Below are positions 6,727 to 58,223 of a stretch of 64,000 nt of DNA, one piece after another. Source of the DNA: Anseongella ginsenosidimutans (GTDB taxonomy: Bacteria > Bacteroidota > Bacteroidia > Sphingobacteriales > Sphingobacteriaceae); assembly GCF_008033235.1 (NCBI RefSeq), contig NZ_CP042432.1:124001-188000 (forward strand). Direction: 5' to 3'. The notes beneath the pieces are model-generated. The model saw only the letters and a program-made list of their open reading frames with translations. It was not told where the DNA came from and searched no databases. Position 1 is the first letter of the stretch. The number at the start of each line of letters is the position of its first letter. Position numbers and translations under genes: made by a program.

Positions 6727-6734
6727 TACCTTTG
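6727..6734 (+). promoter_or_regulatory. -7 box placed four bases before the engB start codon
   Basis: TACCTTTG ends only four bases (CAGC) upstream of the engB ATG at 6739. With the usual distance from -7 box to transcription start in this phylum, transcription would begin at or next to the ATG, giving a leaderless mRNA. The same octamer and spacing occur at rlmN. Confidence 0.5.
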
Positions 6735-30215: not shown

Positions 30216-30252
30216 CAAATGTAAGAAGATTCGTATGAAATGCCTAAATTTG
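30216..30252. promoter_or_regulatory. Divergent -7 boxes between gcvH and the C11 peptidase
   Basis: On the minus strand TACATTTG (30223-30216) precedes gcvH. On the plus strand TAAATTTG (30245-30252) precedes the peptidase gene by 34 nt. Both match TAnnTTTG. The compact 91-bp gap means the two promoters overlap in their upstream parts. Confidence 0.45.
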
Positions 30253-55810: not shown

Positions 55811-57139
55811 TCATTCGCTACCCTGCTGCCAGCGGCCTTCCTGGCTGGCTGCCCCGGTCTCCCCGGTTGGCCGGCCCGCCTGAACCAGCGGTGTTACACG
55901 CGTATTTTCGCCGGGCCGCAGGCCGTCCAGGCCGCTAAGCAGGTTAACCCCGGGCTTCTTTCCCTTTTTAAAGCTCCCCAGGTGTTCCCAGCCAAAGAAT
56001 TCAGCGCCGTTCCGCGTAGCCCATTGCAACAATTGCTCCAGGCTGATCCCCGGAAAACGGCCGGCAATCGTTTTCATTTCCTCCAGGATGCTGAGACGGT
56101 CATTGGATGCAAGACTATCGGTCCCCAGCACCAGGTTAAGCCCTTGCTCAACAAAAAGGGGAATGTCCGGAAGCCGCTGTTCAATATACAGGTTCGCATT
56201 CGGGCAAAGGCACCACCAGGCATTGCTTCCCTTGCTGGCCAGCGCTATATCTTCCGCACGTGTATAGGTATTATGTACCAGGAGTATTTTTCCGGACTCC
56301 CCCAGCCAGGGAAGCCAGGCAGCAAGCGCGGCGCAGCCATAAGGACGGAAAAAAGAAATATCAATGCCGAATTCGCGGTAGAGGCGGTTAAAATCCCCGC
56401 TCCCATCCCCGTAAAAAAGATCCTCCTCTGCGCTTTCCTGGTTATGAATGGAAAACAGTTCAGGCCCGCTGCCGTTTGCGGCCTGGCCGGCAATAAGTTC
56501 GAATAACTTTCTGGAAACGGAATAGGGCGAATGCGGCACAATTCCCGCCCTGCTGCCGGGCGCCGGGCCGAATCCGGAAGCGGCGGGAGTGCCGGATGCA
56601 TGGACGCCGGGAGAAGCCGTGCCCGTGCCTGACCCCGGGCCTGTGGTAAAAGCTTCCTTTAACCTTACCGCGTCAGACAAGATCTTCTCCGCCTTGCATG
56701 GGTCAAAACCAAACACTTCCAGGAAGGTATGGTACTGAAGCCGGGAGTTATGCTTCAGGGAGAACGACAGGTTGGAATTAGCAATATCTCCAACAGCGAC
56801 AATGCCGCCGGCAAGCATTTCACTTTCCGCCTGTTCCATTGCGGCGATAACTTCTTCCTCCGGAAAATGCCTTGAACGCTGAAGCTGCAGAATAAAATCA
56901 ACCAGGCCCCTGCCCTTCTGCACCAGGCCCTTCATTGGAGAAAGTTCCAGATGGCAATGCGCGTTGATAAATCCTGGCGTAAGCACCCCCTCCATATATT
57001 CGGCATCGGCATTTTCACTTCCCGTGTCCGGGCCTGACAGCAGGAGGTCAGCTACCGCGCCGTCCTCTTCCAGTACCAGCACGGCACCGGGATGAAGCCT
57101 GCTTCCGTCAAATACCCAGTCAGCTGTCAGCTTTCGCAT
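55811..57139 (-). CDS. Amidohydrolase-family deaminase/hydrolase
   Basis: A 442-residue metal-dependent hydrolase. TIM-barrel features include INAHCHLELSPM (metal HxH) early and VPHSPYSVS plus LGTDSLASNDRLSIL near the end. A Gly/Pro/Ala-rich insert of about 40 residues (for example PGSGTGTASPGVHASG) sits in the middle, unusual for the family. The ATG at 57139 (MRKLTADWVF) directly follows a -7 box (AAC spacer); the upstream frame adds residues from the rlmN side. Chlorohydrolase/S-adenosylhomocysteine deaminase-like activity is possible but unproved. Confidence 0.85.
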   Translation of the reverse strand: MRKLTADWVFDGSRLHPGAVLVLEEDGAVADLLLSGPDTGSENADAEYMEGVLTPGFINAHCHLELSPMKGLVQKGRGLVDFILQLQRSRHFPEEEVIAAMEQAESEMLAGGIVAVGDIANSNLSFSLKHNSRLQYHTFLEVFGFDPCKAEKILSDAVRLKEAFTTGPGSGTGTASPGVHASGTPAASGFGPAPGSRAGIVPHSPYSVSRKLFELIAGQAANGSGPELFSIHNQESAEEDLFYGDGSGDFNRLYREFGIDISFFRPYGCAALAAWLPWLGESGKILLVHNTYTRAEDIALASKGSNAWWCLCPNANLYIEQRLPDIPLFVEQGLNLVLGTDSLASNDRLSILEEMKTIAGRFPGISLEQLLQWATRNGAEFFGWEHLGSFKKGKKPGVNLLSGLDGLRPGENTRVTPLVQAGRPTGETGAASQEGRWQQGSE

Positions 57140-57142
57140 GTT

Positions 57143-57169
57143 CAAAGGTACAGAAATTCCGTACCTTTG
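57143..57169. promoter_or_regulatory. Symmetric divergent promoter between amidohydrolase and rlmN
   Basis: The sequence CAAAGGTAC, nine bases, then GTACCTTTG is a perfect inverted repeat. Each arm is a -7 box (TACCTTTG) facing outward: plus strand 57162-57169, four bases before the GTG of rlmN at 57174; minus strand 57150-57143, three bases before the ATG of the amidohydrolase at 57139. Both mRNAs would be leaderless or nearly so. Confidence 0.7.
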
Positions 57170-57173
57170 CACC

Positions 57174-58223
57174 GTGGAAACCTTGCGGGAAAAGAAAGAT
57201 ATACGTGTGCTGAGCCTGGAGCGGCTGAAAGAAGTGTTTGCGGAAATGGACGAGCCTGCTTACAGGGCCGTGCAGGTTTACGAGTGGCTGTGGAAAAAGC
57301 CGGTTTTCACTTTTGAGGCCATGAGCAACCTTCCGAAATCGCTTCGCCAGCGGCTGGAAGAAAGTTATGCCATCCGCGCCGTAAAGATCAACACTTCGCA
57401 GAAAAGCACTGATGGTACGGTAAAAAGCTCCTTCCGCCTGCATGACGGGAACCTTATTGAAGGCGTGCTGATCCCTGCCGAAGAACGGATGACCGCCTGT
57501 GTTTCTTCCCAGGTTGGCTGCAGCCTTACCTGTAAATTCTGTGCTACAGGATATATGGAGCGAAAAAGGAACCTGGATGCCGCCGAGATCTATGACCAGG
57601 TGGTGCTAATAGACCGGCAGGCGCGGGAAACCTATGGCTTACCGCTCAGCAATATCGTGTATATGGGCATGGGCGAACCCCTGCTGAATTATAAAAATGT
57701 AATGGCTTCGGTAGATCGCCTTACGTCGCCGGACGGCCTGGGCCTCTCCTATAAAAGGATCACTGTGTCTACGGCCGGCATTGCCAAAATGATCCGGCGG
57801 CTGGGCGACGACGGGGCTAAATTCAACCTTGCGCTTTCCCTTCACGCTGCCAACGACCGGAAGCGCAATGAAATAATGCCCATTAATGAGCAAAATTCCC
57901 TGGAAGCCCTTCGCGACGCCCTGAAATATTATTTCGCGGCAACGAGGAATCCTGTTACCTATGAATATATTGTGTTTAATAACTTTAACGATGAGCTGGC
58001 GGATGCGAAGGAGCTGGCCTTCTTTTGCAAACATATTCCCTGCAAGGTAAATATCATCGAATACAATCCTATTGAGTTCGCCGATTTTAAAAATACCGGC
58101 GAAGATAAGCTGGACGCATTTGCCGCCTACCTGCGGAAACAAGGAGTGAACGTGAACATCCGCCGGAGCCGGGGAAAAGATATTGACGCTGCCTGCGGCC
58201 AGCTTGCCGTGAAAGAGAAATAA
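57174..58223 (+). CDS. rlmN: 23S rRNA (adenine-2503-C2)-methyltransferase RlmN
   Basis: A 349-residue radical SAM enzyme. The cluster cysteines are C116, C120 and C123 (GCSLTCKFCATG), with a YMGMGEPLLNY block and a C-terminal mechanistic cysteine in DAACGQL. It methylates A2503 of 23S rRNA and A37 of some tRNAs. The GTG at 57174 is chosen because the promoter box lies four bases upstream; an ATG-like frame from 57138 would run through the promoter and the other gene's start. Confidence 0.94.
   Translation: METLREKKDIRVLSLERLKEVFAEMDEPAYRAVQVYEWLWKKPVFTFEAMSNLPKSLRQRLEESYAIRAVKINTSQKSTDGTVKSSFRLHDGNLIEGVLIPAEERMTACVSSQVGCSLTCKFCATGYMERKRNLDAAEIYDQVVLIDRQARETYGLPLSNIVYMGMGEPLLNYKNVMASVDRLTSPDGLGLSYKRITVSTAGIAKMIRRLGDDGAKFNLALSLHAANDRKRNEIMPINEQNSLEALRDALKYYFAATRNPVTYEYIVFNNFNDELADAKELAFFCKHIPCKVNIIEYNPIEFADFKNTGEDKLDAFAAYLRKQGVNVNIRRSRGKDIDAACGQLAVKEK

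Follow-up and report, generated by a model that had tools for sequence, protein, structure and literature searches.

An inverted repeat between rlmN and a divergent amidohydrolase gene of Anseongella ginsenosidimutans is probably a pair of back-to-back promoters

What is a perfect inverted repeat doing in the 34-bp gap between rlmN, a housekeeping gene, and a divergent amidohydrolase gene of Anseongella ginsenosidimutans? The locus was analysed within a stretch of 64,000 nucleotides (the window), to whose positions the coordinates below refer unless stated otherwise. The rlmN gene (57174..58223, plus strand), encoding a dual-specificity RNA methyltransferase, scores 372.8 bits against TIGR00048, for which the curated cut-off is 290. 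Its neighbour on the minus strand (55811..57139) is assigned to the amidohydrolase family by PF01979 (Amidohydro_1, 100.3 bits, cut-off 25). The nearest model for this protein is the aminofutalosine deaminase family NF006269, yet the score of 99.2 bits lies below the cut-off of 320. Its residues 165-199 (window 56543-56647, minus strand) form a low-complexity segment rich in G, A, S and P, at which alignments to relatives break.

The region 57137-57176, which includes both start codons, reads CATGTT CAAAGGTAC AGAAATTCC GTACCTTTG CACCGTG. At 57143-57169 (CAAAGGTAC AGAAATTCC GTACCTTTG), perfectly inverted 9-bp arms flank 9 bp, as the sequence-only reading had described, and this repeat occupies most of the gap. 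The arm centres are 18 bp apart. The arms end at 9 bp, where TT (57141-57142) stands opposite CA (57170-57171) and no further pairing occurs. On the plus strand, CACC separates TACCTTTG in the right arm (57162..57169) from the rlmN GTG at 57174; on the minus strand, AAC separates TACCTTTG in the left arm (57143..57150) from the amidohydrolase ATG at 57139. On their respective strands, both arms match TAHHTTTG, the consensus of the Bacteroidota -7 box, and 6 of the 9 bases of each arm belong to this promoter consensus. The two outward -7 boxes that had been noted, 3 and 4 nt from the start codons, were therefore confirmed. The 11 bp between the boxes, CAGAAATTCCG (57151..57161), contain AAATT at 57154-57158, whose centre lies at about -18 of both predicted starts. 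Near -33, TTTG is absent on either strand of this region.

Start mapping in F. johnsoniae is reported to place TAHHTTTG at -12 to -5, with transcription starting 4-5 nt after its G; A+T motifs are described at -18 and -28, and the -33 motif as far less evident than the others (PMC6847099). The same box is reported for B. fragilis, as cited by PMC7366714, and for F. psychrophilum (PMC9723704). We assessed its use by A. ginsenosidimutans in a genomic sample of 464 kb (400 kb plus the window). Here, TAHHTTTG was found 13 times at 3-6 nt before the ATG or GTG of an ORF of at least 100 aa, and five permuted motifs 1-5 times. For 42 intergenic boxes leading into an ORF of at least 100 aa within 100 nt, the A+T content peaks at about -18 (0.74, 5-base mean). 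TTTG gave no clear signal near -33 in the same sample, with starts at -36 to -31 in 3 of the 42 promoter-like sites; since this motif is weak in F. johnsoniae too, it was not used as a strict criterion. The locus resembles the primary-sigma promoter of Bacteroidota as described in these reports (PMC6847099, PMC7366714, PMC9723704) in its box, in how far this lies from the predicted start, in the A+T tract at -18 and in the lack of a clear -33 element. What sets it apart is that 27 bp contain two such boxes facing outward, both of them next to a start codon. A single copy of TACCTTTG was also observed at 6727-6734 (plus strand), 4 nt before the ATG of a 203-codon ORF, which is a candidate for leaderless transcription.

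The rlmN box lies 4 nt from the start codon, which agrees with the published spacing, and transcription is predicted to begin at the first base of the GTG (57174, plus strand). For the amidohydrolase gene, a distance of 3-4 nt predicts a start at base 1 or 2 of the ATG (57138..57139, minus strand), which places the two predicted starts 35-36 bp apart. A distance of 4-5 nt would start the amidohydrolase RNA inside its ATG, at the T or the G, and an intact ATG on the mRNA requires 3 nt. The proposal of two leaderless, or nearly leaderless, mRNAs fits the published geometry as well as the conservation of the boxes described below. A similar placement is known from leaderless genes whose promoter box sits about 10-12 bp ahead of the start codon, so that the mRNA begins at that codon (PMC3160421). 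It speaks against the proposal that mapping studies of Bacteroidota find few such transcripts: leaderless mRNAs are given as 5.5% (PMC9723704) and 5′-UTRs shorter than 10 nt as about 3.7% (PMC7366714); for F. johnsoniae, 87% of leaders are given as longer than 10 nt (PMC6847099). An upstream in-frame ATG at 57138 was considered as the rlmN start and rejected, because it precedes the box and because homology and the box in relatives favour the later codon.

Conservation was assessed in 60 genomes including our own, of which 58 gave a match to rlmN and 49 a match to the amidohydrolase. By coordinates, the two genes form a divergent adjacent pair in 36 genomes, and these were examined for boxes. 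The rlmN start is preceded by a box at 2-9 nt in 30 of the 36, the exact box being absent in 6. Near the amidohydrolase start, a box is found in 7 genomes, always at 3-4 nt (3 nt in our genome, G024 and G032; 4 nt in G001, G005, G029 and G051), and is absent from that place in 29. Five genomes have both boxes. Eight permuted motifs were each found at the same places in 0-2 of the 36 genomes. Judged from this distribution, the rlmN box is old and the amidohydrolase box less so. The gap between the genes, measured from alignment-based starts, ranges from 13 to 209 bp. In the four other genomes with both boxes, among them G001 from the same genus, it measures 72, 73, 115 and 148 bp, and the alignment with G001 shows both boxes retained with 37 more bp between them than here. 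Because these gaps are wide, the wide arrangement probably came first, and the palindrome would have arisen as the gap contracted. Short gaps also exist in two genomes that carry only one of the boxes, G032 (48 bp) and G045 (13 bp), so contraction rather than expansion is probable but not certain.

The palindrome itself would suit an operator, with CAAAGGTAC-N9-GTACCTTTG as the binding site of a dimeric regulator of both genes. Its symmetry is perfect, with the arm spacing given above, and the genome (4.32 Mb) contains the pattern only once when up to 2 mismatches are allowed; with up to 3 allowed, shuffles of the window contain it 0.03 times on average. On the other hand, inverted repeats with perfect 9-bp arms and a loop of 3-20 are by themselves not rare: the window contains 10, and ten Markov shuffles contain 1-7. 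What exceeds chance is the location beside the start codons, rather than the repeat. If two boxes are drawn independently from the TAHHTTTG variants of the genome, both free letters are equal with a probability of about 0.13, so that a perfect-looking palindrome is ordinary once two boxes face outward. With exact 9-bp arms and 4-14 bp between them, the palindrome was found in 1 of 60 genomes. The search for the arm-N9-arm element in related genomes that had been suggested yielded no exact copy among the 59 relatives, and G001 lacks the palindrome although both genes and both boxes are kept. On the basis of these searches, with exact arms in the relatives, a conserved element or operator upstream of the orthologues was rejected. 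An operator is in our view quite improbable, also because the promoter consensus already explains two thirds of each arm (6 of 9 bases). Somewhat less improbable, but still unlikely, is that only the rlmN promoter is real, the amidohydrolase box having arisen by chance and its gene being read weakly or from elsewhere. The rarity of that box (7 of 36 genomes) and its distance from the start, one base below the optimum reported in PMC6847099, speak for this. However, a gap of 34 bp leaves little other room, and near the amidohydrolase gene the 7 real boxes, all at 3-4 nt, stand against 0-2 for the permuted motifs.

Symmetric DNA between divergent mRNAs also recalls the bidirectional promoters of E. 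coli, in which a single shared element is read both ways and for which steric exclusion has been described (PMC12825309). As reported there, the -10 element is shared and the starts are mostly 18 bp apart, with 10 and 23 bp also common. The locus studied here has instead two separate boxes, one per direction, with 11 bp between them, predicted starts at none of these distances, and mRNAs predicted to be leaderless at both ends. An element of the E. coli type is thus very improbable, less probable than either reading above, and the suggestion of one shared bidirectional complex is not supported. The sequence-only reading had also proposed that the two polymerases cannot bind at once and that, unless such a complex is shared, initiation at the two genes must be mutually exclusive. 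The steric part of this seems likely: with starts 35-36 bp apart, and given the E. coli precedent as described in PMC12825309, two polymerases could hardly initiate together. Mutual exclusion of the genes beyond this steric point is unsupported, as exclusion at the DNA does not entail exclusive expression. For rlmN and a metabolic hydrolase, independent firing at a low level would be the default expectation.

Taken together, we consider it likely (probability about 0.8) that the repeat consists of two overlapping, outward-facing promoters of the Bacteroidota primary sigma factor, one per gene, leaderless or nearly so and used by one polymerase at a time, with the palindrome as a by-product. 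Each promoter would be reduced to the -7 box TAHHTTTG and an A+T tract at -18 that is common to both. Transcription would begin at or within one base of each start codon, which would leave both mRNAs leaderless or nearly so. Since a complex initiating in either direction would cover the opposite box, the polymerase would engage only one orientation at any moment. The palindrome would arise because the two outward boxes spell the consensus with identical letters, and a wider gap with the same two boxes probably lost about 37 bp to yield it.

Cramped divergent box pairs are not unique to this locus. The genome contains 31 back-to-back box pairs spaced 4-34 bp apart, compared with 15 in a reversed control. 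In 25 of these 31 cases, the pair is flanked by outward-facing mechanical ORFs that begin within 150 nt and span 50 codons or more. If one start at 3-6 nt from its box is required, 9 forward and 7 reverse cases are found, compared with 0 and 0 in the control. In 6 of the 31 pairs, both starts lie 3-6 nt from their own box. These are the amidohydrolase/rlmN site and five others, which by Pfam separate a weak amidohydrolase match (27.7 bits, cut-off 25) from a DEAD-box helicase, phosphoglycerate mutase from quinolinate phosphoribosyltransferase, a CofH/MqnC-like radical SAM protein from an M16 peptidase, a class-I glutamine amidotransferase from phosphoglucose isomerase, and a B12-binding/MeaB protein from a radical SAM protein. 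One of the five shares the 11-bp spacing. Six of the 30 other pairs, four of these five and two more, were recognised in G001 among the matches listed. Spacer included, these elements are 96-100% identical between the two genomes (36/36, 31/31, 26/27, 23/23, 37/38 and 28/29); the sites in G001 were located via their boxes, so that diverged cases are missed; the spacers were not selected. The DNA 300 nt either side of the six elements is 69-84% identical, with one side at 49%.

Two further pairs were observed in or near the window. At 30216-30252, two -7 boxes have 21 bp between them and the ORFs start 34 and 20 nt downstream, possibly representing leadered divergent promoters. Outside the window, 309 bases beyond its end (G000:C1:188309-188328), two outward boxes lie only 4 bp apart and a 481-codon ORF begins 4 nt from one of them; these 20 bp are also present in G001 (C5:39082).

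Among the matches listed, many genomes of the class have double sites, in which each box has a start 3-6 nt away. Box pairs of the leaderless type looked especially frequent in some small genomes of about 2 Mb (G055, G179, G149 and G116), with at least 9 double sites in G055. In 57 back-to-back double sites, the A+T content is 0.82 at -18, 0.46 at -24 and 0.75 at -30, and the peak at -30 is, for spacings (n) near 22, partly the -18 tract of the other promoter. The distance between the boxes was examined for periodicity. An initial test on 39 double sites, after removal of duplicates, gave p=0.04 at a period of 10.5, but 0.18 over the scanned periods of 9-12.5. A count in 198 genomes followed, covering double sites flanked by ATG on either side in five spacing classes, of which only 26-28 and 31-33 had been predicted before their counting. 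The counts were at least 16 (n=10-12), 7 (16-18), at least 23 (21-23), at least 6 (26-28) and at least 12 (31-33). After removal of apparent orthologues by eye, at least 11, 7, at least 19, at least 6 and at least 12 remained in this order, and among the matches listed 13 of 55 fell in the troughs, compared with an expected 2/5 (p=0.008). Held-out genomes outside the initial set gave, with the classes listed as before, at least 10, 7, at least 15, at least 4 and at least 10, with 11 of 46 listed matches in the troughs (p=0.017). If four sites had gone unseen, all of them in the troughs, p would become 0.05, and 0.10 for the held-out set. Among the matches listed, the classes 26-28 and 31-33 alone do not differ significantly (6 and 12, p=0.12; held-out 4 and 10, p=0.09). 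One-sided tallies showed no alternation, with 98, 79, 90, 101 and 101 of the 198 genomes having a match, from the shortest to the longest class.

Box spacings in relatives may favour about 11, 22 and 32 bp. Back-to-back leaderless promoters could then be a regular, selected module of the class, with spacings in helical register that avoid about 17 and 27 bp and a shared A+T tract that one promoter uses at -18 and the other at -18 or -28. We regard this as a tentative idea, somewhat less probable than its negation. That A+T tracts are shared in dependence on register is modestly supported and should be read as a hypothesis rather than as a result. If the phased module is real, each promoter would be built partly from its neighbour, and at n=11, as in the window, a single central tract would serve at -18 of both. 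Among the matches listed, titles and abstract openings of open-licence PMC papers gave no report of back-to-back promoters in Bacteroidota or of helical phasing of divergent promoters.

A divergent control region of 34 bp is very small: neither a leader nor a -33 box nor a separate operator would fit into it. Elements of this kind recur, six of them almost identical in two species, and so provide natural material for testing how polymerases compete. The same elements would allow a test of leaderless mRNA initiation by ribosomes that do not rely on Shine-Dalgarno pairing. The well-conserved, perhaps phased, back-to-back promoters are the more interesting lead, and if the spacing preference holds, it would show which upstream contacts the unusual sigma factor needs.
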